This document shows positions 17,283-42,208 of a stretch of 64,000 nucleotides of DNA, piece after piece (position 1 is the first letter of the stretch; each line of letters starts with the position of its first letter). The notes beneath the pieces are model-generated. The model ran no database searches and was not told the origin of the DNA. It saw only the letters and a list, made by a program, of their open reading frames with translations. This DNA comes from Asticcacaulis biprosthecium C19 (GTDB taxonomy: Bacteria > Pseudomonadota > Alphaproteobacteria > Caulobacterales > Caulobacteraceae). Made by a program: the position numbers and the translations under genes. The stretch spans positions 1,363,323 to 1,427,322 of the forward strand of contig NZ_GL883077.1 of assembly GCF_000204015.1 (NCBI RefSeq). The letters are read 5' to 3'.

Positions 17283-17298
17283 ATGACAGCGCTGTCAT
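17283..17298. promoter_or_regulatory. LacI-type operator ATGACAGCGCTGTCAT
   Basis: This perfect 16-bp palindrome has the same AGCGCTGTCAT half as four sites around the gluconate-type LacI regulator at 32 kb. It lies 68 bases upstream of the start of a small exported protein. It suggests that this gene belongs to that regulon. Confidence 0.6.
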
Positions 17299-26795: not shown

Positions 26796-26877
26796 TTGGA
26801 ATGCTGTGGTCTGGGCGAAATTTTCAGAAGCTGATTAAATCGCGTTTGCTATTGGGCCTCTATCGGTGGTATCTTTT

Positions 26878-26893
26878 ATGAAAACGTTACCAT
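26878..26893. promoter_or_regulatory. LacI-type operator ATGAAAACGTTACCAT
   Basis: This imperfect palindrome centres on AACGTT and ends six bases before the GGAGG of the GH3 gene. With the 26780 site, 98 bases away, it could support looping or roadblock repression by the LacI protein at 24533. Confidence 0.6.
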
Positions 26894-26910
26894 TGCTTGG
26901 AGGATTGCCT

Positions 26911-29391
26911 GTGAAACTCGACCCGAAAATTTGCCGCAATCCCTTTGTGGTGTCATGGCTGGCCCTGATGGTCGCGGCATCCCCTGTGTGGGCCGCGACG
27001 CCCGGAAAGGCGGATCAGGCCGCCGTCCATCCGGCGAAATGGCCCGCCGCCCGGTCGCCGATCGGTCTTGATAAGGCGACCGAAGCCAAAATCACCGCCA
27101 TGCTGGCTCAGATGAGCGTCGAGCAGAAGGTGGGGCAGATCATTCAGCCGGAATGGAAGACGATCAAGCCGGAAGAGGTTATCCAATATCACATCGGCTC
27201 TATCGAAAACGGCGGCGGCGCCGTGCCTGGGGGCAACAAACACGCTACAGTCAAGGACTGGGTCGATCTGATCGAGCCGTATTACCAGGCCTCGGTCGCG
27301 CCCGGCCAGAAAGTGACCATACCGCTGATCTGGGCGTCGGATGCCGTGCATGGGCACAACAATGTCTATGGCGCCACGCTGTTTCCCCACAATATCGGCT
27401 TAGGCGCCGCCAATGATCCTGAGCTGATCCGCAGGATCGGGGAGGTGACGGCTGCCGAAGTTCGCTCGACCGGCATGGACTGGACGTTTGCGCCCACCAT
27501 CGCTGTGGCGCGCGATGACCGCTGGGGGCGCACCTATGAAAGCTATTCCGAAGATCCGCGCATTGCTTCGACATATGCGGCCGCCATGGTCGCGGGAATT
27601 CAAGGGACGGGGGCTGACTTCCTGGGCCCAAACCATGTGATTGCGACGGCGAAGCATTTTTTGGGTGATGGCTCCACGGATGGCGGTCGCGACCAGGGCG
27701 ATTCAACCGTTTCCGAAACAGACCTGGCACGCCTGCACGGAGCGCCCTATGTCGATGCCATAAATACCGGAACACAGTCCGTGATGGCGTCGTTCAACTC
27801 CTGGCAAGGCGTCAAGCTGCATGCCAATAAAGGGCTGCTGACGGGGGTCCTAAAAGGCAGGATGGGGTTCGATGGCTTTATTATGGGTGATTGGCTGGCG
27901 CACGGTCAAATCCCCGGCTGTACGAATTCGGATTGTTCCCAGGCCTTCAATGCCGGCCTGGATATCTACAACCAGCCTCAGGACTGGAAGCTGCTCTACG
28001 CCAACCTGCTGCGTGACGTGAAGAATGGGACCATTCCGATGGCCCGTCTGGACGATGCTGTCCGCCGCATCTTGCGGGTCAAGTTCCGGATGGGCGTGTT
28101 CGATCAGCCGTCGCCGGCCAACCGGCCCGCTACATTTCAGCCGATCGGCACGCCGCAGCATCGCGCCATCGCCCGCGAAGCCGTGGCAAAATCGATGGTC
28201 CTGCTAAAAAACAACGGCGTGCTGCCGCTGAAGCCCGGCGCCACGGTTTTGATCGCCGGAAACGGGGCCGACAATATTGCCATGCAGTCGGGCGGCTGGA
28301 CCCTGAGCTGGCAGGGCGCGGACAACAGCAATAATGATTTTCCCGGTGCCACCTCGATCTATGAAGGCCTGAAAGCTCAGATCGAGGCGAAGGGCGGGCA
28401 GGCTTTGTTCAGTCCCGACGCCACCGCGCCGCAAAAGCCTGACGTCGCCATTGTGGTCTTCGGTGAAACGCCCTACGCCGAATTCATGGGCGATCAGTCC
28501 GACGTCGCCCTGCACTATGGCAACACCGAATCTTTGGCCCTGCTCAAGTCTTTGAAGGCGCAAGGCATACCGGTGGTGGCTGTGCTGCTATCCGGGCGGC
28601 CGCTATACCTCAATCCGCACATCAATGCCGCCGACGCCTTTGTCGCCGCCTGGCTTCCGGGATCGGAAGGCGCAGGTGTCGCCGATGTACTGGTTGGAGA
28701 CAAAGACTTCCAGGGACGCCTTAGCTTTTCGTGGCCGAAGCGGCCCGACCAGACGCCGCTGAACGTCGGCGACGTCAATTATGATCCGCAGTTCGCCTAC
28801 GGCTTCGGTCTGAGCTACGCCCAACCGGCCCAGACGGCGCAACTGCCCGAAGTCGCCAGCACGACCAAGTACGGCGAGAAGAACGTCTATTTCAGCAAGG
28901 GTACGGTTTGGAATGGCTACGGTGTCACGCTAAGCGACAACGACAATCATCGCATGGACTATGTCGGCACCCAAACCACGCTTTACGGCACTGCGGCCCT
29001 GACGGTATCGCCGCAGGATGATGCCAGCCTGCGGGCTGTGTGGAACGGCAAGACGCAGGCCTCTCTGTCGGTTGGCGCCGAGGCGCCATCCGACATCGCG
29101 CGTGAAGCCAACGGGGCGATGGTCCTGTCCATGACCCTGCGGGTCAATGCGGCACCGACCAAAGAGGTCCGGCTAGGCGTCGGCAGCGCCTCGGTGCCGG
29201 TCACCGCGTGGCTGGCGGAGGCATCGTCCGCCTATAGGGTCTTGTCGGTACCCCTGTCGTGCTTCACGAGTCAGGACCTGTCGGCGACCCCGACCGTGAT
29301 GCAACTGACGACCGAAGGCGCGCTCGATATTTCCATTCAGGACATCCGCCTCGGCGAGACGAAGCCCGGCGCCGCTTGCCCGACGCAATAA
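26911..29391 (+). CDS. Glycoside hydrolase family 3 beta-glucosidase (ExoP-like)
   Basis: The 826-residue enzyme starts at GTG 26911, seven bases after GGAGG, giving a clean signal peptide (VVSWLALMVAASPVWA). The family 3 TIM-barrel domain has DWTFAPTIAVARDDRWGRTY and KHFLGDG; the nucleophile is D327 in GFIMGDWLAHG. The second domain has VLLKNNGVLPLKPG and VIVVFGETPYAEFMGDQSD. A further C-terminal beta-sandwich (about residues 650-826) matches the extra domain of ExoP-type exo-beta-1,3/1,4-glucanases. It probably releases glucose from beta-glucan oligosaccharides in the periplasm. GH5 follows 38 bases on. Confidence 0.93.
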   Translation: MKLDPKICRNPFVVSWLALMVAASPVWAATPGKADQAAVHPAKWPAARSPIGLDKATEAKITAMLAQMSVEQKVGQIIQPEWKTIKPEEVIQYHIGSIENGGGAVPGGNKHATVKDWVDLIEPYYQASVAPGQKVTIPLIWASDAVHGHNNVYGATLFPHNIGLGAANDPELIRRIGEVTAAEVRSTGMDWTFAPTIAVARDDRWGRTYESYSEDPRIASTYAAAMVAGIQGTGADFLGPNHVIATAKHFLGDGSTDGGRDQGDSTVSETDLARLHGAPYVDAINTGTQSVMASFNSWQGVKLHANKGLLTGVLKGRMGFDGFIMGDWLAHGQIPGCTNSDCSQAFNAGLDIYNQPQDWKLLYANLLRDVKNGTIPMARLDDAVRRILRVKFRMGVFDQPSPANRPATFQPIGTPQHRAIAREAVAKSMVLLKNNGVLPLKPGATVLIAGNGADNIAMQSGGWTLSWQGADNSNNDFPGATSIYEGLKAQIEAKGGQALFSPDATAPQKPDVAIVVFGETPYAEFMGDQSDVALHYGNTESLALLKSLKAQGIPVVAVLLSGRPLYLNPHINAADAFVAAWLPGSEGAGVADVLVGDKDFQGRLSFSWPKRPDQTPLNVGDVNYDPQFAYGFGLSYAQPAQTAQLPEVASTTKYGEKNVYFSKGTVWNGYGVTLSDNDNHRMDYVGTQTTLYGTAALTVSPQDDASLRAVWNGKTQASLSVGAEAPSDIAREANGAMVLSMTLRVNAAPTKEVRLGVGSASVPVTAWLAEASSAYRVLSVPLSCFTSQDLSATPTVMQLTTEGALDISIQDIRLGETKPGAACPTQ

Positions 29392-29429
29392 AACCCAGGA
29401 AAAGTCTGGAGGCCAAGAAAGGTTTGGAC

Positions 29430-31154
29430 ATGAAGGCGATGCTTATTCACGGCCGGCGACTCGCCTGCCTTCTTGTCGCGGTGATGTCCGCTCATGTCGC
29501 GCCAGCATTCGCGGTTGGCGCAGGCGATGCCGGCGCAGCCTTTGGTGACAGCCGTTACACGGGTGAGGCTCAGAAAATCCCCGGGACGGTCCACGCCGCC
29601 TATTATGACACCGGCGGTGAAGGTGTCGCCTATCACGACACGGACAGTCAAAATCACGGCAGCGGTGCGCTGAATCCGCTTGATGGCAGCTATCTGCACG
29701 CTTTCCGGGCCCAGGAGGGCGTCGATATCTCGTTCACGAAGTTCGAGAATCCGGGCATTGAAGTCGATGACAGTCCGTTCAACCACGTGGTCCCGCCGGT
29801 TGATCAGCTGTATGTCGGCTGGACCGAGCCCGGCGAGTGGTTCAATCTGACGGTCGATGTGGCGCACGACGGCGAATATGTCGGTGACCTGCTGTACACC
29901 TCCCAGCACGGCGGCACGATTGCGATCGACGTCAATGGCGCGCCGGCGACGGGAGATCTGACGCTGCCCGCCACGGCCGATCTGGCGGATACCGTTGCCT
30001 GGCGGCAATGGCACCATTGGGATGAAGCCAAGGGGGTGATCCGGCTCAAACTGACGGCGGGGCTGAATCGGCTGACCGTGCGGGTCCAGTCCGGTGGCGA
30101 TATGAACTTTGCGACCCTGACGTTTCGTGAGGCGGCGGCAGCGCCCGACGCCCATCAAGCCGCAGCGGCCATGGGGATGGGCTTCAATCTCGGCCAGATG
30201 TTTGACAACACTCAGCATCCGCCGACCCTGGCGGCTGCCAAACCCAAGATCGATGCCTATTACGACCGGGGCTTTCGGGTTGTCCGCATCCCGGTGACCT
30301 GGACCGAACCGGTTGGCGGTGTCGTGATCGCGGACCCCATGACTGGCAGGGTTGATCGCGGGTCCGATCGGCTCAACGCCCTGAAGGCCGTTGTCGACTA
30401 TGCCCTCAGCAAGCCAGGTCTTTATGTCGTGCTCAACGCCCACCATGAGAAGGACCTCAAGGATTTCACTCGCGCCAAGGTCCTGGAAACCCTTTGGTCC
30501 GATATCAGCGACATCTTCAGGGACCGCGACCATCGCCTGCTGTTTGAAATCCTGAACGAGCCGCATTTGAGCAACCGCGATGCCATGCCGCCCGAGCACC
30601 TGCGTCACATGACCGGTCTGGCCTATCGCCAGATTCGCAGCGACGATGTCCGGCGCATCGTGATCATTGGCGGCAACCAGTGGTTCGCCGCGGCGGAAAT
30701 GGCGCGTACCTGGCCGGACCTGGAGACCGTTGGCGGCGGCAAGGACCCTTATGTGATGGCGACATTTCATCACTATGACCCGTGGACCTTCAGTGGTGAT
30801 AACCAGGGCGACTATGCCGACCCATGGACGGCGGCGGACATTGCCCGGCCGATGCAGGCCATGGCCGATTGGGCGCAAACGGTCGGTGGCGGCATGCCTG
30901 TCTTTATCGGCGAATGGGGCGTCGGATGGCAAAGCCGCTACAAAACGATGAACTGCAACAATATCCGCCAGTGGTACGCGCAGTTTCCGCGGCATGCGGC
31001 GACGATGGCTATGCCGACAGCCGTCTGGGACGATGGCGGCTGGTTCCAGGTCTACGATCACGCCACGGACCAGTTCGGCAATAACCTGATCGATTGCATG
31101 GAGAGGGGCTGCGTCGTCGCCCCGCGCGAGCGCTTCCACCCTGACTGTCTGTGA
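29430..31154 (+). CDS. Glycoside hydrolase family 5 cellulase with N-terminal CBM6-like domain
   Basis: The 574-residue secreted protein has a signal peptide (LACLLVAVMSAHVAPAFA), a carbohydrate-binding beta-sandwich (about residues 45-235: IPGTVHAAYYDTGGEGVAYH, WFNLTVDVAHDGEY, LTVRVQSGGDMNF) and a family 5 catalytic barrel. The acid/base is E377 in LLFEILNEPH and the nucleophile E495 in VFIGEWGVGW. Expected activity is endo-beta-1,4-glucanase or a related endo-glucanase. It is cotranscribed with the GH3 beta-glucosidase and supplies its oligosaccharides. The start follows GGAGG at 29409-29413 at some distance. Confidence 0.92.
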   Translation: MKAMLIHGRRLACLLVAVMSAHVAPAFAVGAGDAGAAFGDSRYTGEAQKIPGTVHAAYYDTGGEGVAYHDTDSQNHGSGALNPLDGSYLHAFRAQEGVDISFTKFENPGIEVDDSPFNHVVPPVDQLYVGWTEPGEWFNLTVDVAHDGEYVGDLLYTSQHGGTIAIDVNGAPATGDLTLPATADLADTVAWRQWHHWDEAKGVIRLKLTAGLNRLTVRVQSGGDMNFATLTFREAAAAPDAHQAAAAMGMGFNLGQMFDNTQHPPTLAAAKPKIDAYYDRGFRVVRIPVTWTEPVGGVVIADPMTGRVDRGSDRLNALKAVVDYALSKPGLYVVLNAHHEKDLKDFTRAKVLETLWSDISDIFRDRDHRLLFEILNEPHLSNRDAMPPEHLRHMTGLAYRQIRSDDVRRIVIIGGNQWFAAAEMARTWPDLETVGGGKDPYVMATFHHYDPWTFSGDNQGDYADPWTAADIARPMQAMADWAQTVGGGMPVFIGEWGVGWQSRYKTMNCNNIRQWYAQFPRHAATMAMPTAVWDDGGWFQVYDHATDQFGNNLIDCMERGCVVAPRERFHPDCL

Positions 31155-31176: not shown

Positions 31177-32262
31177 TCAGGCGCTTTCGCGTGCGCGCAG
31201 CTGGAAACCGAGATCGATGGTTTTGCGCGGGACGGTCTGTCCTTCGATCAGGGCCAGCAGCATGTGGGCGGACTGGACGCCGATGTCGTAGCGCGGCGTG
31301 GCGATGGTCGTTAACGATGGCACGCTGCATTCTGACATGGGCAGGTCGTTGAACCCCGCCACAGCCAGTTGGTTCGGCACCTGAATGCCGCGGCGCAGGC
31401 ATTCGAACAGAGCACCTTGAGCCAAGTCGTCGTTACAGAAGAAAACCGCATCGGTATCGGGTGCCTGTTCCAGCAGCCGGCGCAAAAGCGCCGCGCCCAG
31501 GGCGACCGAAGACTGGTCCGGAACCAGAACCTCGCGGTGCGATTCGTAGAGCCCGGCCTTGATGATGGTGTCGCGATACCCCCGGTTCCGTGCCAGGGTT
31601 CGTGGATCCAGCTGCGACGCCACAAAGGCGATTCGGCGGTGGCCCTTGGCGAGCAGGTGTTCCGTCATGGCCTGGGCGGCGGCTTCCTGCGAGAAGCCCA
31701 CGCTGTAGGTGCCTTCGCGGTCGGAAAGCTCCATCATGTGCACGATCGGAATGCCGGCCTGATCGATGAGCTGCCGGGTTGCCTCGCGATAGTTGAAGCC
31801 GGTCAGCAGCATGCCGTCGGGGGCAAAGGCCAGATAGGCGCGGACCAGCGCCTCTTCTTCTTCGGCGGAGTAGTGGTTGACCCCCATCAGCATCTGGTAG
31901 CCGTGGGCGCGAAACACCTTTTCGATGCCGGTCACGGTGTCGACAAACACCGAGTTGCTGAGCGACGGCACCAGGACGGCAATGTTCATCGACCGGTTTG
32001 ACGCCAGAGCGCTGGCAGCGCGGTTGCGGACATACCCCAGATCATCGGCGGCCTGCTGGATGCGCCGGCGAAGATCCTCGGACACCTTGTCGGGCCGACC
32101 AAAAGCGCGCGAAACCGTAATCGTCGATACGCCCACCCGTTTTGCGACGTCGTCAAGAGTCGCGCGGCCGGTGCTGGAGGCGCGGGATGCCAGTTTTGAT
32201 GCCCTGTCCAAAATGCCCGAACCTGCCCTTTGCTCGCCCCGAAAAGTCCCTTTCTCGTTCAT
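31177..32262 (-). CDS. LacI-family regulator, gluconate-operon type
   Basis: The 361-residue protein from ATG 32262 has a basic N-terminal extension of about 28 residues, then the helix-turn-helix TLDDVAKRVGVSTITVSRAF, hinge helix RAASALASNRSMNIAVLVPS, and a ligand domain (GIPIVHMMELSD, FFCNDDLAQGALFECLRRGI, GFNDLPMSECSVPSLTTIATP) like GntR of gluconate operons. Four AGCGCT-centred operators lie upstream; one is 24 bases before its start, suggesting autoregulation. The adjacent TonB receptor, gluconate kinase and GntP genes are the likely targets. Confidence 0.9.
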   Translation of the reverse strand: MNEKGTFRGEQRAGSGILDRASKLASRASSTGRATLDDVAKRVGVSTITVSRAFGRPDKVSEDLRRRIQQAADDLGYVRNRAASALASNRSMNIAVLVPSLSNSVFVDTVTGIEKVFRAHGYQMLMGVNHYSAEEEEALVRAYLAFAPDGMLLTGFNYREATRQLIDQAGIPIVHMMELSDREGTYSVGFSQEAAAQAMTEHLLAKGHRRIAFVASQLDPRTLARNRGYRDTIIKAGLYESHREVLVPDQSSVALGAALLRRLLEQAPDTDAVFFCNDDLAQGALFECLRRGIQVPNQLAVAGFNDLPMSECSVPSLTTIATPRYDIGVQSAHMLLALIEGQTVPRKTIDLGFQLRARESA

Positions 32263-32285
32263 GTACCGAATCTGTGAAAATTGCA

Positions 32286-32301
32286 ATGATAGCGCTGTCA
32301 T
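32286..32301. promoter_or_regulatory. LacI-type operator ATGATAGCGCTGTCAT
   Basis: A near-perfect 16-bp palindrome centred on AGCGCT, 23 bases before the regulator start codon. Probably autoregulatory. Confidence 0.75.
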
Positions 32302-32592
32302 TTTTGGATTCGGCAAAAATCTTATACGGTCTGCTTATTTATCGCTTGTGATTGGGATGGGTAATCCGTGAGCGGTCGCGGCGAGTTGTTGACGCTTGTT
32401 GCCATTCACGCCATGGCGCGTTTTGCATTTCGTGGTAAAAAATTAATATAATCAATTATATATGCAATTTTATAGAGCTTGCGTCGCTGTGTTTCGTCAA
32501 TGGTGTTTGGGGGCCGGGCTGCCTGTTCTCTTCTGGTTTGGTGTGCTGGGCGGGAAAATTTCGGACGACGTCGTCATTTTTCTGATCCGGGC

Positions 32593-32648: not shown

Positions 32649-32664
32649 ATGTTAGCGCTGTCAT
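32649..32664. promoter_or_regulatory. LacI-type operator ATGTTAGCGCTGTCAT, copy 1
   Basis: First of three evenly spaced copies ahead of the TonB receptor gene. The core TTAGCGCTGTCAT is shared by all three. Confidence 0.8.
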
Positions 32665-32736: not shown

Positions 32737-32752
32737 GTGTTAGCGCTGTCAT
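32737..32752. promoter_or_regulatory. LacI-type operator GTGTTAGCGCTGTCAT, copy 2
   Basis: Second copy, 88 bases after the first, differing only in its first base. Confidence 0.78.
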
Positions 32753-32822: not shown

Positions 32823-32838
32823 ATGTTAGCGCTGTCAT
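32823..32838. promoter_or_regulatory. LacI-type operator ATGTTAGCGCTGTCAT, copy 3
   Basis: Third copy, 86 bases after the second and identical to the first. It ends 27 bases before the receptor start codon and close to its ribosome binding site. Confidence 0.8.
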
Positions 32839-32865
32839 TTGCCGCTCGTGAAGGGAAAGACACGC

Positions 32866-35805
32866 ATGTTAAAGTTCAAACGCCATATCATCTGCTCGGT
32901 ATCAGCCCTTGTGCTCGGTTGCCTGGCCACCGGAGCGTCCGCTCAGGATACCGCCCCGACCACGGAAGCGCAGACGACCGAGGACGGCGCGATCATCGTG
33001 ACCGCGTCACGCATCACCACGCGCGGCTTCAAGGCGCCGACCCCGACCAGTTCGATCGGCGCGCTGGAAATCGCCAACAATGCCCAGCCGAACATCTTCA
33101 CCACAGTGGCGCAACTGCCGTCGCTCCAGGGCTCCAGCGGCGCCACCACCAACACCTTCAGCACCTCCAGCGGCCAGCAGGGCTTGAGCTCGTTCGCCCT
33201 GCGCGGCCTGGGCGTCAGCCGCACCCTGACCCTTCTGGACGGCCAGCGCGTCGTGCCGGCCAATATCGGCACCGGCGCGGCCGACATCAGCCTGTTTCCG
33301 CAACTGCTGATCAAGCGGGTGGACGTGGTCAATGGCGGCGCCTCGGCCTCCTGGGGTTCCGATGCCGTTGGCGGCGTGATCAACTTCGTCACCGACACCC
33401 GCTTCAAGGGTTTCAAGGCCAATATCTCCCTGGGTGAGACCACCTATGGCGACGACAAGACCGGCGTGGTCCAGATGGCCTACGGTACGTCATTCCTGGA
33501 TGATCGCCTGCACACGGCCGTCGCGCTGGAATATCACCGCGAAGAAGGCGTTGGTCCTGGCGATTTCGGCGAGAAGGCTGCCAATGGCCGTGACTGGTAC
33601 CGCTCCTCGACCCTGGTCAATACGGGCCAGACCAATAACGGTTCGCCGCAGTTCCAGTACAAGGATCATGCCCAGTCCTACACCTATTCGAAGTACGGCC
33701 TGATTACCGCCGGTCCGCTGCAGGGAACGGCCTTCGACGCTAACGGCAATCCGTATCAGTTCGGTTACGGCAACAACGGTGCCGGTGGGGCCGCCGGCGT
33801 GCCGCTGAAAGACGCGGCCGGTACGGTATCCGGTTGTTTTACCGGCTTCTGCATCGGCGGTGACACGTCGGCCAATGTCGGCGTCGGGGCCACGCTTCAG
33901 TCGGGCATTATCCGCACCAACTTCTACAATCGCACCTCGTTCGACCTGAACGACGACAGCGAGATCTATTTCACCATCAACCTGGCCAAGGTCGACACCC
34001 ACAACCAGCCGAATCCGGGCACCACCCAGGCCGGCCTGACGGTCCAGTGCGCCAACCCCTATGTGCCGAACTCGATCAAGCAGGCGTGCACGGACAACAA
34101 CATTACCAGTTTCCGCTTCGGGACGGTGACACCGTGGCTGCCCAACATCCGCGTCAATACCGAGCGCAAGCAGGAGCGCTTTGTCGTCGGGTCCAACGGC
34201 AAGTTCGGCCTGTTCGGTACCGACTGGAACTATGATGCCTACTACCAGCACGGCAAGGAAACCTCGGACATCAAGGTCCACAACCTGCTGCTGAAGGCAC
34301 GCTTCACGGCGGCCATCAACGCCACGACCATCGGCGGCGTCATTGTCTGCGCCGATCCCGTGGCCCGCGCCAATGGTTGTGTGCCGGTCAATGTCATCGG
34401 CAATCAGACGCCCAGCGCCTCGGCCCTGGCCTATCTTCAACCGGCCGTCGGTGCCTACCAGCACACCATCCAGACCCAGGATGTCGCCAGCCTGAGCTTC
34501 TCGGGTGAGCCCTTCTCGCTGTGGGCCGGTCCGGTCTCGATGGCGTTTGGCGCGGAATACCGCCGCGAAGCCTACCGTGCGGTGGCCGATCCCTACGGTA
34601 ACGGCACCAGCACCCCGTACAGCCCCGACTACCCGGCCGATCCGCTCCTGAGCACCGGTGGTGGCAACTTCTACGCCGGCAACTACCGCAACGGCCGCGG
34701 CAGCTATACGGTGGCCGAAGCCTTCCTGGAATTCAACGTCCCGCTGCTCAACAGCGAACAACTGGGGGCCGTCAACCTGAACACCGCCGGCCGCGCTACC
34801 AACTACAGCACTTCCGGTGCCGTCGAAGCCTGGAAGGTCGGCCTGACCTGGGATACGCCGCTGGACGGCATCCGTGTTCGTACCGTCCGGTCGCAGGACG
34901 TGCGGGCGCCGAACCTGAACGACTTGTTCGGGCCGATCGTCTCGACCAACCTGCCGAACTTCACCAACCCGTTCACCAACTCGACCCTCACCGTGTCGCA
35001 GAACCAGGGTTCCAACCCGGGGCTCGTTCCGGAAATCGCGCAGAACTTCTCGTTCGGCCTGGTCCTGAACAATCCGATGTGGTTCCCGGGCTTCAGCGCC
35101 TCGGTGGATTACTACAGCATCGAGATGAAAGACGCGATCGCAGGTGGTCCTAACGCCACCCAACTGGTGCAGTACTGCTTCGACGGTTCGGTGCCCTCGG
35201 CCTGTAACGCCTTCAACCTGTCGGGTGCCAACCCCTATGTGAACGTCGGCAACATCAATGCGGCCTCGATCGAGACCAGCGGTGTCGACTACGAGTTCAG
35301 CTATCAGCGTTCCAAGCCGTTTGGTCTGCCGGGTAACCTGGTCCTGCGCGGCCTGGCGACCAATGTCCGCGACTTCACCACCATTCCGGGCCTGCCAGGT
35401 ACGGTTGCGTCCCAGACCGCCGGCCAGAACTCCGGTGCGACTCCCGACTGGAAGGTGCTGTTCGTTCAGACCTGGTCGACGGAGAAGTTCAGCCTCCTGA
35501 TCCAGGAGCGCTGGTTCAGCGACGGCGTCATCGGCAACCAGTATGTCGTCTGTACCTCGGCCTGTCCCGCGTCTACCGGCAACCGTCCAACCCTGGACAA
35601 CAACACGATGAAGGGTATGACCTATATCGACATCGGCGGCACCTACAATGTCCGTCCGGGCGTCCAGGCCTACTTCAAGATCGACAATCTGTTGAATGCC
35701 GATCCCGAACCTTCGCCCCAGACCAATACCGGCCTGGACGTGAACCCCGCGCTCTATGACACGCTCGGCCGCTTCTATCGCGTCGGCGTCCGCTTCAACT
35801 ACTAA
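32866..35805 (+). CDS. TonB-dependent outer-membrane receptor (aldonate locus)
   Basis: The 979-residue receptor starts at ATG 32866 with AAGGGA upstream. It has a signal peptide ending ATGASAQD, a plug domain (IIVTASRITTRGF, FALRGLGVSRTLTLLDGQRV, VDVVNGGASASWGSDAVGGV) and a 22-strand-type barrel ending in the aromatic residues VGVRFNY. Such receptors import oligosaccharides or other large ligands using TonB energy. Position behind three operators and in front of gluconate genes suggests that it takes up an oligosaccharide that yields gluconate or its lactone. Confidence 0.93.
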   Translation: MLKFKRHIICSVSALVLGCLATGASAQDTAPTTEAQTTEDGAIIVTASRITTRGFKAPTPTSSIGALEIANNAQPNIFTTVAQLPSLQGSSGATTNTFSTSSGQQGLSSFALRGLGVSRTLTLLDGQRVVPANIGTGAADISLFPQLLIKRVDVVNGGASASWGSDAVGGVINFVTDTRFKGFKANISLGETTYGDDKTGVVQMAYGTSFLDDRLHTAVALEYHREEGVGPGDFGEKAANGRDWYRSSTLVNTGQTNNGSPQFQYKDHAQSYTYSKYGLITAGPLQGTAFDANGNPYQFGYGNNGAGGAAGVPLKDAAGTVSGCFTGFCIGGDTSANVGVGATLQSGIIRTNFYNRTSFDLNDDSEIYFTINLAKVDTHNQPNPGTTQAGLTVQCANPYVPNSIKQACTDNNITSFRFGTVTPWLPNIRVNTERKQERFVVGSNGKFGLFGTDWNYDAYYQHGKETSDIKVHNLLLKARFTAAINATTIGGVIVCADPVARANGCVPVNVIGNQTPSASALAYLQPAVGAYQHTIQTQDVASLSFSGEPFSLWAGPVSMAFGAEYRREAYRAVADPYGNGTSTPYSPDYPADPLLSTGGGNFYAGNYRNGRGSYTVAEAFLEFNVPLLNSEQLGAVNLNTAGRATNYSTSGAVEAWKVGLTWDTPLDGIRVRTVRSQDVRAPNLNDLFGPIVSTNLPNFTNPFTNSTLTVSQNQGSNPGLVPEIAQNFSFGLVLNNPMWFPGFSASVDYYSIEMKDAIAGGPNATQLVQYCFDGSVPSACNAFNLSGANPYVNVGNINAASIETSGVDYEFSYQRSKPFGLPGNLVLRGLATNVRDFTTIPGLPGTVASQTAGQNSGATPDWKVLFVQTWSTEKFSLLIQERWFSDGVIGNQYVVCTSACPASTGNRPTLDNNTMKGMTYIDIGGTYNVRPGVQAYFKIDNLLNADPEPSPQTNTGLDVNPALYDTLGRFYRVGVRFNY

Positions 35806-35871: not shown

Positions 35872-36044
35872 GCTTGTACCCCGGATATCCGCTGTCCCTG
35901 GTGGCGGATATACCTGACTTGGCCCGGCGCAAGGATGAAGCTTGCCGTGATGTCCGGGCCGCATGCTTCCAGATCAAAGCCCATCTCCCGAGCGCCCGCT
36001 GGAAGCATGTTCTCTTTTTTCGTTCCCGTTACCGAGGCAGGACT

Positions 36045-36590
36045 TTGACTTTTTCGGCCACAGCCATCGTCATCATGGGTATCAGCGGCTGCGGCAAGTC
36101 TACGCTGGGGGCAGGGCTCGCCGAGGCGACGGGTTACCGCTTCGTCGAAGGCGACGATCTTCACCCCGCCGAAAACATCGCCAAGATGTCGGCTGGCATC
36201 GCCCTGAGTGACGATGATCGCTGGCCGTGGCTCGAGCGGATCGCCGAGGTCCTAAGCTCCGCGAAGGCAGGGGACGGCTGCATCGTATCCTGTTCCGCCC
36301 TGCGCTATGCCTACCGGCATCTGTTGAGAACGCGGTCACCCGAGGGGCTTCTGTTCGTCTTTCCGCACCTGCCGACTGACATTGTCCGCGCCCGTCTGCG
36401 CGATCGACCCAACCATTACATGCCGCCCAGCCTGATCGACAGCCAGGTGGCAACCTTGGAACTGCCCAGGCCGGACGAGCCTGTCCTGACCATCAACGGT
36501 GCCGCGGACCCGTCGCGGTGCGTCGACCTGGTGATGAGCTTTCTGTCGACTCCCCAAATCTCCCCGCGACATTCACTTACCCACATCTGA
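36045..36590 (+). CDS. gntK: Gluconate kinase
   Basis: GntK phosphorylates gluconate to 6-phosphogluconate, entering the Entner-Doudoroff or pentose phosphate path. The 181-residue product has the Walker A loop MGISGCGKSTLG, FVEGDDLHPAENIAKMSAG with the conserved GD-LHP motif, DDDRWPWL, and SCSALRYAYRHLLR. The start is TTG 36045 with GAGGCAGG upstream; earlier in-frame codons give an unlikely N-terminus. It is placed between the TonB receptor and the fused beta-helix/gluconolactonase gene, 16 bases before the latter. Confidence 0.93.
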   Translation: MTFSATAIVIMGISGCGKSTLGAGLAEATGYRFVEGDDLHPAENIAKMSAGIALSDDDRWPWLERIAEVLSSAKAGDGCIVSCSALRYAYRHLLRTRSPEGLLFVFPHLPTDIVRARLRDRPNHYMPPSLIDSQVATLELPRPDEPVLTINGAADPSRCVDLVMSFLSTPQISPRHSLTHI

Positions 36591-36606: not shown

Positions 36607-39600
36607 ATGGCACGCAAAACCCTGATGATCGCCGCCAGTCTGGCGGCCCTGGCTTTGAGTATCCCGGCCTGGGCGCAGGAGGGGCGGGGGTCCGTCTACC
36701 TGACCGCGCCCAACGACCGGCTGGCCATAACGGTCAAGGGCGTGGGCGACGGCAAGGCCGACGACACCGCCGAGATCCAGGCCGCCATCGATGCCGCGGC
36801 GAAATCGGGCGCCGGCGGCATGGTCTGGCTGCCGTCCGGCCGCTATCGCATTACCAAGAGCCTGGTCATCCCGCCGGCCGTTCGCCTGTTCGGCGTCGGC
36901 CCAACGCGGCCCGTGTTGCTGCTGGCCGACCGTACCCCGGGCTTCGACCAGGGGGTGGCGACCATGGTGATCTTTAGTGGTTCCGATCAGTACAACACCG
37001 GACCGGTGCCCGTGCCGGTTCCGTCGGCGCGCCCGTACAGCGCTATTGTCCGCGACGCCAATTCCGGCACCTTCTATTCCGCCCTGTCCAATATCGATTT
37101 CGAGATGGGTAAGGGCAATCCCGCCGCGGCCGGGGTGCGCATGCGCCTGGCCCAGCACGCCTTCCTCAGCCACATCGACTTCCGCCTCGACTCGGGTTTC
37201 GCCGGCATCTACCAGGCCGGCAATGTCGTCGAGGACGTGCATTTCTATGGTGGCCGCTACGGCATCGTCACCGAAAAGACTTCGCCCGCCTGGCAGTTCA
37301 CCCTGATCGACTCGACCTTCGACGGCCAGCGCGAGGCGGCGATCCGCGAGCATGAGGTCGATCTGACCCTGATCAACATCTCCATCAAGAACACGCCCGT
37401 CGGCATCGATATCGACCGCGGCTACAGCGACAGCCTGTGGGGCAAGGACGTCCGCTTCGAGAATGTCTCGAAGGCCGCCGTGGTGATCAGCAATGAAAGC
37501 AGCCCCTTCACCCAGATCGGCTTTGACAATGCCGTGGCCACCGGCACGCCGGTGTTTGCGCGCTTTCGCGACACAGGGCGGACGCTGAAGGCGCCGGGCG
37601 CCAATTATCGCGTCAGGGCGTTCAATTACGGCCTGAAGATTGAGGGCCTGGGCCAGATCGGCCAGTTCGACACCAACTATCAGACCGAGGCCTTGGCGCA
37701 GATGCCGAAATGGGGCGGCAATGTCCTGCCGGCCCTGCCGCCGGTGGCTCAATGGGTCGACGTCCGGACGCAAGGCGTGGTCGGTGACGGCGTCGCCGAC
37801 GACACGGTTACCCTGCAAAAAGCCATCGACACCCACCGGGTGATCTATCTGCCAATGGGTCACTACCGGGTCAGCGACACTCTGCGCCTGCGCAGCGATA
37901 CGGTCCTGATCGCCTTGCACCCCAGCCTGACCCAGATCACCCTGACCGAAGAGACGCCGGCCTATCAGGGCGTTGGCAGCGCCAAGGCGCTGATCGAAAG
38001 CGCCAGCGGCGGCAACGCCATCATCACCGGGTTGGGACTGTTCACCGGTGGGGTCAATCCGCGCGCCACGGCGCTGTTGTGGAAGGCCGGCGAACGCTCG
38101 CTGGTGGAGGACATCCGCATTCATGGCGGCCACGGCACGTTTCTGCCCGATGGCAAGCGCGTCGACTTTTCCGATCCGAAGTTCCGCATGGACGGCCAGC
38201 ATCCCGGCATCTGGGTGACCGACGGCGGCGGCGGCTACTTCGTCGGCAACTGGACGCCCAATACCATGTCCGACACCGGCTTCTATGTCAGCAACACCAA
38301 GACGCCCGGCCATGTCTACGAACTATCGGCCGAGCACCATCATCGCCATGAGATCGTGCTGGACGGCGTTGAAAACTGGGAGTTCCTGTCCCCCCAGACC
38401 GAGCAGGAGGTCATCGACGGCCTGGAATCGATGTCGCTGGAAGTGCGCAACTCCAAGAACATCCTGTTCGCCAACTACCACGCCTATCGCGTCACCCGCA
38501 GCCTGAAGCCGGCGACCACGGCGGTGAAGCTGTACAATGTCGAGAATATCCGCTTCCGTAATATGTCCGTGAATGCCGAGAGCGGCTACGCCACCTGCGA
38601 TACCAATGGCTGCGGCACCTATCTGCGCGCCAGCAAGTTTCCGTTTGAGAACGCTATTACCGACATGACGAACAAGCTGGAGCTTCGCGAGCGCCAGTTC
38701 GCTGTTCTGGACGTGACCTCCACCCCGCCTGCGGTACCGACCACACCCGTGCCGGCCGGTCTGGAAGCGGCAAGGGTCGAAAAGCTGGAAGGCGACTTCT
38801 ATTCGATCAGCGGCGGCGCCGTCGACGCCAAGGGCAATCTCTACTTCGTCGACAAACACTTCCACCGCATCTACCGCTGGTCCAAGGCGCGCGGCCTGGA
38901 GGTCGTCAGCGACGAGCCTCTCGATCCCGTCAACCTGGCCGTCGATAAATCCGGACACCTGATGGTGCTGTCGTCTGACGGACCCGAGGCTTCGGTCTAC
39001 AGCTTCGATCCGTGGACGGCGACGGCCCCGATCACCCGCATCGCCCCGACGCTGGTGTCAGCACGCACCGATGCCGTGGTCGCCCTGCCGGGCAATCTGT
39101 GGAACAACGGCGAATTCCGCGACCAGCTCGACCCGAAGACCTATGAGTTCACCACCCTGGCACAGATGTTCGCCCGCGACGTCGCCGTGCCCAAGACGCA
39201 CGAATATGTCTCGCCCGACGGCAGCCTGGTCCTGCCCGCCTTTCGCGTCTACAAACAGGGCAAGACCAACTTCCAGGGCTGGCGCTGGTCTGACTCGCTG
39301 GAAACCTATGGCTTCGTCACCGCCAAGGTCGGCGACCGGGTAACGGTCAGCAACGGCTCGGAGCAGCGCATCTACAGCGGGTTGGTCGGACCGGGTGGCA
39401 GCATCACTGACGTCAAGGCCCTGACCGATCGCGGCGGTGAAAGCGTTGCCGTCGACGCCAAGGGGCGGTTGTTCGTCGCCAACGGACAGATCTTCGTCTA
39501 TGACGCCGCAGGCAAAGCTTTGGGACGGATCGATACGCCGGAGCGCCCCTTGCAGCTTATCTTCGGTGGCGAGAACCAGGAAACCCTGTTCATCCTGACG

Positions 39601-39639
39601 CACCACAGCCTGTACAGCCTCAGTGTAAAGGGCTTCTGA
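36607..39639 (+). CDS. Secreted double beta-helix (GH55/pectate-lyase-3-like) fused to SMP-30/gluconolactonase domain
   Basis: The 1010-residue protein has a signal peptide (LAALALSIPAWAQ) and three parts. Residues 30-370 form a right-handed beta-helix opening with VGDGKADDTAEIQAAID. Residues 380-700 form a second, opening with VGDGVADDTVTLQKAID. This tandem arrangement is that of GH55 exo-beta-1,3-glucanases. Residues 715-1010 look like an SMP-30/gluconolactonase propeller (AVDAKGNLYFVDKHFHRIY, GESVAVDAKGRLFVANG, IFGGENQETLFILT). I infer periplasmic or surface release of a sugar unit coupled to lactone opening. It sits between gntK and the gluconate permease, overlapping the latter by one base. 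Confidence 0.75.
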   Translation: MARKTLMIAASLAALALSIPAWAQEGRGSVYLTAPNDRLAITVKGVGDGKADDTAEIQAAIDAAAKSGAGGMVWLPSGRYRITKSLVIPPAVRLFGVGPTRPVLLLADRTPGFDQGVATMVIFSGSDQYNTGPVPVPVPSARPYSAIVRDANSGTFYSALSNIDFEMGKGNPAAAGVRMRLAQHAFLSHIDFRLDSGFAGIYQAGNVVEDVHFYGGRYGIVTEKTSPAWQFTLIDSTFDGQREAAIREHEVDLTLINISIKNTPVGIDIDRGYSDSLWGKDVRFENVSKAAVVISNESSPFTQIGFDNAVATGTPVFARFRDTGRTLKAPGANYRVRAFNYGLKIEGLGQIGQFDTNYQTEALAQMPKWGGNVLPALPPVAQWVDVRTQGVVGDGVADDTVTLQKAIDTHRVIYLPMGHYRVSDTLRLRSDTVLIALHPSLTQITLTEETPAYQGVGSAKALIESASGGNAIITGLGLFTGGVNPRATALLWKAGERSLVEDIRIHGGHGTFLPDGKRVDFSDPKFRMDGQHPGIWVTDGGGGYFVGNWTPNTMSDTGFYVSNTKTPGHVYELSAEHHHRHEIVLDGVENWEFLSPQTEQEVIDGLESMSLEVRNSKNILFANYHAYRVTRSLKPATTAVKLYNVENIRFRNMSVNAESGYATCDTNGCGTYLRASKFPFENAITDMTNKLELRERQFAVLDVTSTPPAVPTTPVPAGLEAARVEKLEGDFYSISGGAVDAKGNLYFVDKHFHRIYRWSKARGLEVVSDEPLDPVNLAVDKSGHLMVLSSDGPEASVYSFDPWTATAPITRIAPTLVSARTDAVVALPGNLWNNGEFRDQLDPKTYEFTTLAQMFARDVAVPKTHEYVSPDGSLVLPAFRVYKQGKTNFQGWRWSDSLETYGFVTAKVGDRVTVSNGSEQRIYSGLVGPGGSITDVKALTDRGGESVAVDAKGRLFVANGQIFVYDAAGKALGRIDTPERPLQLIFGGENQETLFILTHHSLYSLSVKGF

Positions 39640-40979
39640 TGGCGTTTCTGTCTGCGGAGACGACCGCGCTGGTCATTGTGCTGATCGCGGTCCTGTCGCT
39701 TGTTGCCATGATCGCCTGGGTGAAGGTTCAGCCTCTGCTGGCCTTTGTCATAGCCTCGATCCTGGCCGCCCTGCTGCTGCAAATGCCGCTCGAGAAGATC
39801 GCCAAGTCGATTGAGACCGGCATTGGCAGCATGATCGGGTCTTTGGCCGTGCTGCTGGCCCTGGGCGCCATTTTCGGCAAAATCGTCGCCGACAGCGGCG
39901 CGGCGAAAAAGATTTCGATCGTTCTGATCAAGGCGTTCGGCGACAAGCGCATCGCGATCGCGCTGTGCCTGACCGGTTTTATTGTCGGCATCCCGCTGTT
40001 CTATAATGTTGGCTTCGTTCTGCTGGTGCCGTTGATCTTTTCGGTGGCGCGTCAGTCGGGCAAACCGATCGTCTATCTGGCGCTGCCGGTCATGGCCGGG
40101 CTGTCGATCTCGCATGGCTTTCTGCCGCCGCATCCTTCGCCAGCCGCCATCGTGCCGATGTTCGGCGCCGATATGGGCCTGACTTTAATTTATGGCCTGA
40201 TCGTCGGCATCCCCACGGCTCTGGTCGCCGGGCCGGTCTTTGCCTTGACTGCCAAGCACATTGTCGCCAATCCGCCCAAGCTGTTCGTGGCCGAAGAGGT
40301 GGCGGACGACAAGTTACCGTCGGCGGCCAACTGCTTCCTGACCGCGCTCTTGCCGGTGATTCTGCTCAGCGCCTTTACCTTGCTGGGCTATGCCGAAGGC
40401 CTGGACGCCCAGACGAAGTCGCTGGTCGCCTTCCTCGGCAATCCGATGATTGTCATGCTGGTGTCGGTGGTGGTGGCCCTGGTGACGCTTGGCCTCGGGC
40501 GCGGCATGCCGCTCAATGACCTGATGACCGGTTCGGGTACGGCGCTGCGCGAAATCGCCCCGATCCTGCTGATCATCGCCGGTGCGGGTGCGTTGAAACA
40601 GATCTTCGTCGACGGCGGTGTCAATGAGCAGCTTGGGCTGATGCTTAAAAGCCTTCCGGTACCGCCGCTGGTGCTGGGCTGGCTGATCGCCGGCGTCATT
40701 CGTCTGGCCCTGGGTTCCGCGACCGTGGCAGGTCTGACGGCCGCAGGACTGGTCGCGCCTCTGGTGGCGGCCAGTGGGGTGGATCCCAATCTGATGGTGC
40801 TGGCCATCGGCGCCGGAAGTCTGATGTTCAGCCACGTTAATGACTCGGGCTTTTGGATGTTCAAGGAGTATTTCGGGCTGTCCGTGAAGGACACGCTTCG
40901 CTCCTGGACCCTGATGGAAGGGCTGGTCGGCATATGTGGCTTGGGCTTTACACTGTTGCTGAGCCGGTTCGTGGCTTAA
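39639..40979 (+). CDS. Gluconate:H+ symporter, GntP family
   Basis: The 446-residue permease has about 12-14 membrane segments. Family features are LLALGAIFGKIVADSGAAKK, FIVGIPLFYNVGFVLLVPL, GLSISHGFLPPHPSP and FSHVNDSGFWMFKEYFGLS near the C-terminus. GntP proteins import gluconate and related aldonates across the inner membrane. Its ATG overlaps the last base of the fused enzyme stop, so both are coupled. With gntK it completes uptake and activation of gluconate made in the periplasm. Confidence 0.95.
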   Translation: MAFLSAETTALVIVLIAVLSLVAMIAWVKVQPLLAFVIASILAALLLQMPLEKIAKSIETGIGSMIGSLAVLLALGAIFGKIVADSGAAKKISIVLIKAFGDKRIAIALCLTGFIVGIPLFYNVGFVLLVPLIFSVARQSGKPIVYLALPVMAGLSISHGFLPPHPSPAAIVPMFGADMGLTLIYGLIVGIPTALVAGPVFALTAKHIVANPPKLFVAEEVADDKLPSAANCFLTALLPVILLSAFTLLGYAEGLDAQTKSLVAFLGNPMIVMLVSVVVALVTLGLGRGMPLNDLMTGSGTALREIAPILLIIAGAGALKQIFVDGGVNEQLGLMLKSLPVPPLVLGWLIAGVIRLALGSATVAGLTAAGLVAPLVAASGVDPNLMVLAIGAGSLMFSHVNDSGFWMFKEYFGLSVKDTLRSWTLMEGLVGICGLGFTLLLSRFVA

Positions 40980-41159: not shown

Positions 41160-41897
41160 CTATTCTGCGTCGAACTTGGCGATGTCGTCAATCAGGCCGG
41201 CCACCGCGGCGTCGATAATCTTCTGGCCGTCCTCGACCGTGGCCAGCGACGAATCCGAGCCGATGCGGCCGTCGGTAAACCGGGCGCGGTAATCCAGGGC
41301 GTCGCGGATCGGGCCGTTCGGTGCGACCTGCGGCTCCATGGTGTGGGATTTCACACGGTCAGGATAGGCCGCAAAGGTCACCGCGATCTCCGAGGGGGTG
41401 GCGTGGGTGCCGTGGCCGGTCGGGTACAGCTTGGCGCACAGGCGCGAAATGCCCGGCAGGTCCCACCAGTTGCGCAGCTTCAGGATAAACGGACAGGGCT
41501 CGGCGGCGTAGGAATAGTCGGAATAGATCTCGGAAAAGGCGGCTTCGATGGTGGCGACATTACCGCCGTGGCCGTTGAGGAAATAGATCCGGTCGAAGCC
41601 GTGGCGCGCCAGGGAATTCACCCAGTCCGAAATTGCCGCCATAAAGGTCGAGGGGCGCAGGGAGATCGTGCCGGAAAAGGACAGGTGGTGCTGGGCCATG
41701 CCGATATTAAAGGTCGGCGCGATCAAGAGGTCGCCTGATTTTTCCGCGGCATGGGCGATGATTTCCGGGCAAAGCCAGTCTGTACCCAGCAAGCCCATGG
41801 GGCCGTGCTGTTCGTTGGAACCGATGGGGATGATGACGGTCCGCGACGACTTCAGGCGTTCGTCGATTTCGGGCCAGGTGGAAAATGCCAGCAGCAT
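41160..41897 (-). CDS. Creatininase-family amidohydrolase
   Basis: The 245-residue enzyme from ATG 41897 has GGAG seven bases upstream. GSNEQHGPMGLLGTD holds the metal-binding E-x-H and aspartate, LNGHGGNVATIEAA the next histidine, and GTHATPSEIAVT a further acidic residue. The family includes creatininase, MftE and formamide hydrolases; the substrate here cannot be named. A small membrane protein gene follows. It faces the aldonate operon and may or may not be related to it. Confidence 0.88.
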   Translation of the reverse strand: MLLAFSTWPEIDERLKSSRTVIIPIGSNEQHGPMGLLGTDWLCPEIIAHAAEKSGDLLIAPTFNIGMAQHHLSFSGTISLRPSTFMAAISDWVNSLARHGFDRIYFLNGHGGNVATIEAAFSEIYSDYSYAAEPCPFILKLRNWWDLPGISRLCAKLYPTGHGTHATPSEIAVTFAAYPDRVKSHTMEPQVAPNGPIRDALDYRARFTDGRIGSDSSLATVEDGQKIIDAAVAGLIDDIAKFDAE

Positions 41898-42208
41898 AAG
41901 AATACTCCGTCGCAATCTGCGTCGAGACTGTTCGTAAATGGGTGATGCTGGCCTGCAAAGGGCCGTTTTCTGCGCTTCCGGTGCTCACGTACAAAAAGTA
42001 CGCTCCGCTCCGGTTCTCGAAACCGACCCTTTTCGGCTCAGCCTGACCCATTTTCAAACAGTCTCTTAAGCGTTCCCACTTCTTGGCGCCATCTTTTTCG
42101 CATTGGTCTTATGGACTTAGGATTCGCGTTTCCCTAAGGTCCCGCCAACGAAAACCCCCTTGGTTCCTTTGGGGCCAGAACGGGGGAATGCAGAGGACGA
42201 CGACCATC
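41898..42208. other. Gap containing a palindromic intergenic element
   Basis: The gap holds the 140-bp inverted-repeat element 41925-42064 (separate entry) and then about 140 bases of acs upstream region without clear motifs. No gene is supported. Confidence 0.5.
41925..42064. repeat. 140-bp palindromic intergenic element
   Basis: The ends are inverted: AGACTGTTCGTAAATGGGT at 41925-41943 matches the complement of 42046-42064 at 17 of 19 positions. The interior contains further palindromes (GTAC-AAAAA-GTAC; GGTTCTCGAAACC). This looks like a REP/MITE-type mobile hairpin of the kind scattered between alphaproteobacterial genes. A shorter relative lies at 35822-35871. Confidence 0.6.

Follow-up and report, generated by a model that had tools for sequence, protein, structure and literature searches.

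The window analysed here, a stretch of 64,000 nucleotides from Asticcacaulis biprosthecium C19 (contig NZ_GL883077.1), carries a gene for a 1010-residue fusion protein, hereafter FUS, that joins two β-helices to a propeller of the SMP-30/gluconolactonase (SGL) type and stands among genes for gluconate uptake. The gene order is glycoside hydrolase family 3 (GH3, +), GH5 (+), a LacI-type regulator (-), a TonB-dependent receptor (+), GntK (+), FUS (+), GntP (+) and a creatininase-type gene (-), and this is the single FUS gene of the genome (G000; 5.41 Mb, 98% complete). The FUS stop and the GntP start overlap by one base (TGATG), and 16 bases separate the GntK stop from the FUS start, with the receptor gene before gntK, as an earlier note made from the sequence had read them. 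The gntK open reading frame (ORF) is called too long: its conserved part begins at ORF residue 65, and the true start probably lies inside the ORF, near 36046-36066. Coordinates are collected in Table 1.

The same note described FUS as an exported-looking fusion of two GH55-like β-helices and an SMP-30-type propeller, and the ORF, Pfam and AlphaFold agree on that architecture. The N-terminus, read by eye, resembles a secretion signal, and Pfam finds two PF12708 stretches (E 8.5e-37) and an SGL match (PF08450; E 5.8e-11, 42.9 bits against a cut-off of 26.3). An AlphaFold model of the whole protein, from an 85-row alignment, has a mean predicted local distance difference test (pLDDT) score of 91.6 and a predicted template modelling score of 0.92, and FUS is predicted from this model to be two side-by-side right-handed β-helices of the GH55 fold followed by a gluconolactonase-fold propeller. 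We find that the top four chains in a Foldseek search of the Protein Data Bank (PDB) are all GH55 (5m5z, 1.6e-28; 3eqn, 1.6e-25; 8jhh twice, 3.9e-17), with template modelling (TM) scores by target of 0.58-0.68; the gluconolactonase XC5397 (3dr2) ranks fifth (1e-9) and SacteLam55A (4pew) eighth (7.9e-9). Sequence-profile searches likewise give GH55 as the top match, so that the GH55 assignment of the helices holds by profile and by fold. Modelled alone, the propeller reaches a pLDDT of 88.8 and matches 3dr2 (E 7.5e-12, TM 0.57), and a PDB profile search with it returns mainly designed Pizza propellers, which are uninformative on function.

Two other accounts of this architecture were considered and rejected. 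A chance fusion or frame artefact is at odds with the 62 of 67 match rows in the family sample (299 genomes, with up to two candidates scored in each) that are near full length, five being partial, and with a fusion that is nearly whole in 78/78 loci read. A phage tail-spike is suggested by PHROGs matches that are short and near the helix starts (46-89, 383-483 and similar; best E 4.9e-13), and the fold search ranks the tail-spike entry 2vbm at 1.1e-7, far below GH55 at 1.6e-28.

The conserved residues of the helices were read from an alignment (A3) that starts from the 114 FUS-family proteins of the 78 loci, retains the 105 of length 930-1120, drops sequences at 92% identity or more to leave 84, and adds the window protein. 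The published description of MnLam55A (PMC10637969) gives E614 as general acid, Y617 as its helper, a relay of E140, S203, Q172 and E591, and a -1 subsite of E140, W552, D557, E591 and H592. Our pairing with MnLam55A comes from a hidden Markov model (HMM) alignment, in which the chain numbering matches that description, and it equates E599 with E614, E576-H577 with E591-H592, D539 with D557 and W536 with W554. E576, H577, E599 and Q183, the last the putative counterpart of Q172 of the water relay, are invariant (85/85 rows), W536 is kept in 81/85 and S153, a candidate for the Glu/Thr relay position (E140/T149), in 75/85; Q183 and S153 were placed by alignment to 3eqn and 5m5z together with the PcLam55A numbering. 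Because the acid machinery is kept and two landmark residues are not, the helices are best described as a divergent, putative GH55-type enzyme.

The propeller gives a different picture. In SMP30 and its relatives a Glu, two Asn and an Asp are the ligands of a divalent metal, and as a control these residues are kept in the stand-alone SGL proteins encoded near FUS (12 of 14 aligned, A5), with E98, N197 and N252 present in 12/12 rows and D308 in at least 11/12. Alignment of the FUS propeller to these proteins by hhalign (probability 92.9) pairs the Glu with 734 and the second Asn with 901, puts the first Asn near 864 and offers only a gap for the Asp; MAFFT, run in two modes, gives 735, 923, 871 and 945 for the Glu, second Asn, first Asn and Asp, respectively. 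At neither proposed position is the metal-binding Glu present in any of the 85 rows (734 is I/L/A, 735 is A/G/S), and the second Asn is an Asn in only 12/85 rows at 901 and a Y/F in 58/58 rows at 923, the latter counted in A4, the 58 of the 85 rows used for the propeller-alone model. The usual Glu/Asn/Asp site, which the earlier note had set beforehand as its test of the propeller, is thus found neither by hhalign nor by MAFFT, and, judged from these alignments, it is lost, the Glu in all rows and the second Asn in most. The fold that the note named therefore stands (PF08450, 3dr2), but a standard gluconolactonase is not supported, and a lactonase step has weak backing.

E945 and D871 are nonetheless invariant over the 85 rows, and an altered metal site may use E945, perhaps with D871. 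hhalign backs neither pairing, and since D871 lies within an SPDG turn that hhalign matches to an SGL-protein turn, the MAFFT pairing of D871 is doubtful. Eleven further propeller residues are conserved in 85/85 rows (N834, E836, D839, R880, R893, N916, R942, N959, R980, Q983 and H999), and with so many invariant polar residues the propeller is evidently under selection for something. The loop of residues 881-894 has a pLDDT below 50 in the propeller-alone model and block means of 81 and 89 in the whole-protein model; because confidence rises when the helices are present, this loop is perhaps packed on them, with the smaller alignment possibly accounting for part of the contrast.

Table 1. Features of the FUS locus, with positions counted from the first base of the window
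Feature	Position	Strand	Evidence or remark
FUS, 1010 aa, GH55-like double β-helix and SGL-fold propeller	36607..39639	+	Pfam, AlphaFold, Foldseek
β-helix A, residues ~28-370 (predicted)	36688..37716	+	contains Q183 (codon 37153-37155; 85/85)
β-helix B, residues ~371-705 (predicted)	37717..38721	+	contains E576 (codon 38332-38334) and E599 (codon 38401-38403), both 85/85
SGL-fold propeller, residues ~723-1010 (predicted)	38773..39636	+	without the usual metal-binding Glu
Propeller loop, residues 881-894	39247..39288	+	G885, R893 85/85
GntP gluconate permease	39639..40979	+	TIGR00791, 473 bits vs cut-off 293
GntK gluconokinase	ORF 35874..36590	+	TIGR01313, 163 bits vs cut-off 114
TonB-dependent receptor	32839..35805	+	possible ATG start at 32866
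GntR, LacI-type gluconate repressor (P. aeruginosa-type)	31177..32316	-	NF052440, 500.6 bits vs cut-off 400
GntR-type operator TGTTAGCGCTGTCAT, copy 1	32650..32664	+	
GntR-type operator TGTTAGCGCTGTCAT, copy 2	32738..32752	+	
GntR-type operator TGTTAGCGCTGTCAT, copy 3	32824..32838	+	
GntR-type variant site TGATAGCGCTGTCAT	32287..32301	+	5' end of gntR
GH5 cellulase-family protein	29259..31154	+	possible upstream partner
GH3 β-glucosidase-type protein	26866..29391	+	possible upstream partner
Creatininase-type gene	41160..41915	-	

FUS is widespread. Carriers number 41/299 genomes in a sample of the host's family, 7/299 in a sample of its order and 3/398 in one of its phylum, samples that overlap and all include the window genome, and a scan of named genomes finds at least 393 relatives, from the best 80 of which the 78 loci were read. 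They include Asticcacaulis, Caulobacter, Sphingomonas, Sphingobium, Novosphingobium, Altererythrobacter, Duganella, Massilia, Pseudoduganella and Herbaspirillum, and among the matches listed the closest relatives of the window protein are those of Asticcacaulis. The earlier note would have given up its reading if this domain order proved common and had been characterised with another substrate; the order is indeed common, but searches of open-access papers turned up no account of the fusion, nor of any comparable TonB-gluconate locus. FUS also occurs on four plasmids (NZ_AP029026.1, NZ_CP155749.1, NZ_CP081002.1 and NZ_CP110112.1; one typed conjugative, three non-mobilizable), where it is annotated as a 'glycosyl hydrolase family 28-related protein' in three of the four records and not at all in the fourth.

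Neighbouring genes were identified with HMMs built from clustered neighbours in flanks of up to 10 kb, 8/78 loci being shortened by contig ends, and each cluster was named from one scanned member or from likeness to the window genes. A TonB receptor is near FUS in 68 of the 78 loci, GntK in 63, GntP in 48 and an MFS carrier in 8, so that GntP or MFS is found in 56/78 and GntK together with an importer in 44/78; a FadR-type regulator (47), a separate SGL protein (14), a Gfo/Idh oxidoreductase (13) and a PF10282 lactonase (4) also recur, and a GH67 α-glucuronidase is nearby in 5/78. Coupling to gluconate import and phosphorylation, which the earlier note had read from this one locus, is conserved and extends far beyond the window, and the Asticcacaulis genomes described below bear this out. 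An MFS carrier with FUS and a LacI regulator occupies the usual place of GntP in eight Caulobacterales loci (L041, L053, L054, L056, L058, L059, L096 and L112), and the one such carrier scanned is nearest the galactonate-transporter subfamily, below its cut-off. With MFS in the place of GntP the locus seems to need a sugar-acid importer, which suggests that this is the function required. Four Sphingomonas loci without GntP (L085, L092, L098 and L102) have a Gfo/Idh oxidoreductase close to FUS and, judged by cluster, a PF10282 lactonase too, of which one in the four was scanned. Six loci (L041, L053, L086, L099, L104 and L111) carry two FUS copies each, and a quick tree places the paired copies from Caulobacter and Sphingobium in two separate clades, each common to both groups; as each clade holds Caulobacter and sphingomonads, the copies are old paralogues and, with the acid residues kept in both, may have different substrates.

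Three copies of TGTTAGCGCTGTCAT precede the receptor gene, spaced by 88 and 86 bases. Allowing up to three mismatches, the window holds 8 matches against 1.11 expected, a number reached in 0/100 shuffles, with two places counted on both strands and one match (50785) unrelated. Genome-wide, TGTTAGCGCTNNCA occurs at 6 places, three of them directly before the receptor gene, and a backwards-pattern control gives 0. The Asticcacaulis loci L037-L040 have 3, 2, 2 and 1 exact matches, respectively, and in A. solisilvae (L044) one site lies 25-40 bases before the FUS ORF and two before GntK. In P. aeruginosa (PMC5902321), GntR recognises AC-N1-AAG-N1-TAGCGCT, keeps gntR and gntP repressed, and responds to gluconate and 6-phosphogluconate; by resemblance to this motif, the window regulator presumably binds the sites of Table 1. 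The 86-88-base spacing recurs in the relatives L037, L038 and L039, and looping is conceivable. Elsewhere in the window, a GntR-like palindrome, TGACAGCGCTGTCA, lies within a small ORF at 17283-17298, and of two further GntR-like sites (L120, L121) one lies downstream of a LacI gene, ahead of a fumarylacetoacetase-like gene, and the other ahead of a FadR-like gene, these genes being named by eye.

Among 25 Asticcacaulis genomes, FUS is present in 10 and GntP over its cut-off in 12, the latter in 10/10 FUS-carrying and 2/15 FUS-less genomes (Fisher p 2e-5, kinship ignored here and in the tests that follow). A pyrroloquinoline quinone (PQQ) dehydrogenase above 300 bits, a line we chose after viewing the list, is found in 9/12 GntP-positive and 0/13 GntP-negative genomes (p 1e-4), and in 7/10 FUS-carrying and 2/15 FUS-less genomes (p 0.009); matches at E 0.001 or better occur in 17/25, and just 2/25 exceed the curated cut-off. 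That the dehydrogenase tracks GntP hints at a periplasmic glucose-to-gluconate route in this genus. The copy in the window genome (L115; contig C3, ~805177-807204) scores 440 bits against a glucose/quinate cut-off of 833.

We tentatively favour a reading in which FUS is a divergent GH55-type hydrolase that frees gluconate from an aldonate-ended glucoside, while the propeller helps to form its substrate site. The locus would then serve TonB-dependent uptake under GntR control and yield gluconate, or an aldonate close to it, at the end. Its receptor would carry the glucoside over the outer membrane, and in the periplasm the double helix would cleave a β-glucosidic bond by the inverting mechanism of GH55, with E599 as acid and a water activated through E576 and Q183; one product would be gluconate, imported by GntP, or by the MFS carrier in Caulobacterales loci, and phosphorylated by GntK. 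Because its usual metal site is gone and its conserved loop may touch the helices, we take the propeller to be a module that may shape the aldonate-side subsite. What the data show is the fold, the conserved acid residues, the missing Glu ligand, the gene neighbourhood and the operator-like sites; from these we infer the periplasmic location, the substrate, the role of the propeller and the direction of the pathway, and the oxidised-glucan substrate already proposed in the earlier note is an inference of the same kind. Several findings weigh against this reading. On the enzyme side, D539 is an Asp in just 68/85 rows, W552 of MnLam55A falls in an alignment gap in FUS, the position of Y617 (602) is V in 52, A in 29 and another residue in 4 of the 85 rows and never Tyr, and relay residue S203 has no clear counterpart in the FUS alignments. 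On the genomic side, GntK is missing nearby in 15/78 loci, an importer in 22/78 and both in three (L042, L076 and L110); the neighbour counts are raw frequencies, and the Fisher tests treat related Asticcacaulis genomes as independent.

The altered GH55 residues bear on two of the other explanations. If FUS were an ordinary GH55-type β-1,3-glucanase, its glucose would be oxidised by periplasmic dehydrogenases, PQQ-dependent or of the Gfo/Idh type, to gluconolactone and gluconate for GntP and GntK, and no oxidised substrate would be required. We consider this somewhat unlikely, even though such a glucose-oxidation route fits nearly as well as an oxidised-glucan substrate: its main support is the tracking of GntP and of FUS by the PQQ dehydrogenase, a copy of which the window genome has, and the Gfo/Idh oxidoreductases and separate SGL and PF10282 lactonases near FUS, together with the upstream GH3 and GH5 genes, are consistent with it, but three of the ten FUS genomes (G094, G119 and G149) have no match above 300 bits, the window copy falls well below the glucose/quinate cut-off, and the loss of W552 and Y617 equivalents disfavours a plain glucan. 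That same loss would suit a double helix that acts on another sugar acid or serves as a binding scaffold and is no glucan hydrolase, with GntK and GntP handling an aldonate other than gluconate, as would the galactonate-like MFS carrier and the occasional GH67 neighbour. This is the least probable explanation we consider, given an acid pair and Q183 that never vary, a window GntK and GntP above their gluconate-subfamily cut-offs, and a regulator above that of the P. aeruginosa-type GntR.

The scheme of the earlier note has the helices shorten an oxidised oligosaccharide whose lactone is opened by the propeller, and it would now need an unusual site around E945 and the other invariant polar residues. 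The SGL fold, the MAFFT pairing of E945 with the catalytic Asp and of D871 with the first Asn, the eleven further invariant residues and a surrounding pathway for gluconate all speak for it; the Glu absent from every row, a second Asn that both alignments find mostly missing, the lack of hhalign backing for E945 or D871, and a separate SGL protein in 14/78 loci, with canonical residues kept in the 12 rows read, make it improbable. Returning to the aldonate-ended glucoside that we favour, a bolder form would make FUS a new kind of glycosidase, in which a GH55 rift is completed by a propeller that is without its usual metal site and recognises the aldonate end, so that aldonate-ended β-glucosides left by fungal oxidative enzymes are split into sugar and gluconate; with the TonB receptor, importer and GntK, it would define an unnamed class of oxidised-oligosaccharide loci in sphingomonads, Caulobacteraceae and Oxalobacteraceae. 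We regard this fuller proposal as unlikely as it stands.

Cellulose and glucans that fungi and other microbes have oxidised leave behind sugars with an acid end, which something must consume, and a widespread, apparently exported enzyme in a conserved gluconate-uptake gene set suggests a bacterial route for them. If true, this would be an overlooked hydrolytic route for acid-ended sugars in hundreds of bacteria, and a large family, labelled just 'glycosyl hydrolase family 28-related protein' in three of the four plasmid records, would gain a name. In FUS, moreover, a lactonase fold seems to have lost its usual metal site and found a new use next to a glycosidase.

Set against known systems, FUS has the two β-helices, general acid, Glu-His partner, putative relay Gln and the Trp and Asp of the WVTD stretch of the exo- and endo-acting GH55 β-1,3-glucanases (PcLam55A, 3eqn; CtLam55, 5m5z; MnLam55A, 8jhh; SacteLam55A, 4pew), but lacks equivalents of W552 and Y617 and adds a C-terminal SGL-type propeller and a surrounding gluconate-uptake locus. 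With the SMP-30/gluconolactonase family (XC5397, 3dr2; 3e5z; human SMP30) it shares the propeller fold and an SGL match over the cut-off, but not the metal-binding Glu; the second Asn is mostly gone, and the Asp aligns with Glu945 or with a gap, depending on the alignment. The window has the GntP, GntK, GntR-type regulator and TAGCGCT-containing sites of the gntR-gntK-gntP operon of Pseudomonas and E. coli. A TonB receptor and an exported-looking, glycosidase-like protein come in addition, and because of these two the starting point is probably an oligosaccharide. Cellobionic acid is reportedly used by way of cellobionic acid phosphorylase; as in the route proposed for FUS, an aldonate-ended sugar there ends in gluconate and gluconokinase, but that route uses a phosphorylase, whereas the FUS locus is proposed to use a hydrolase.

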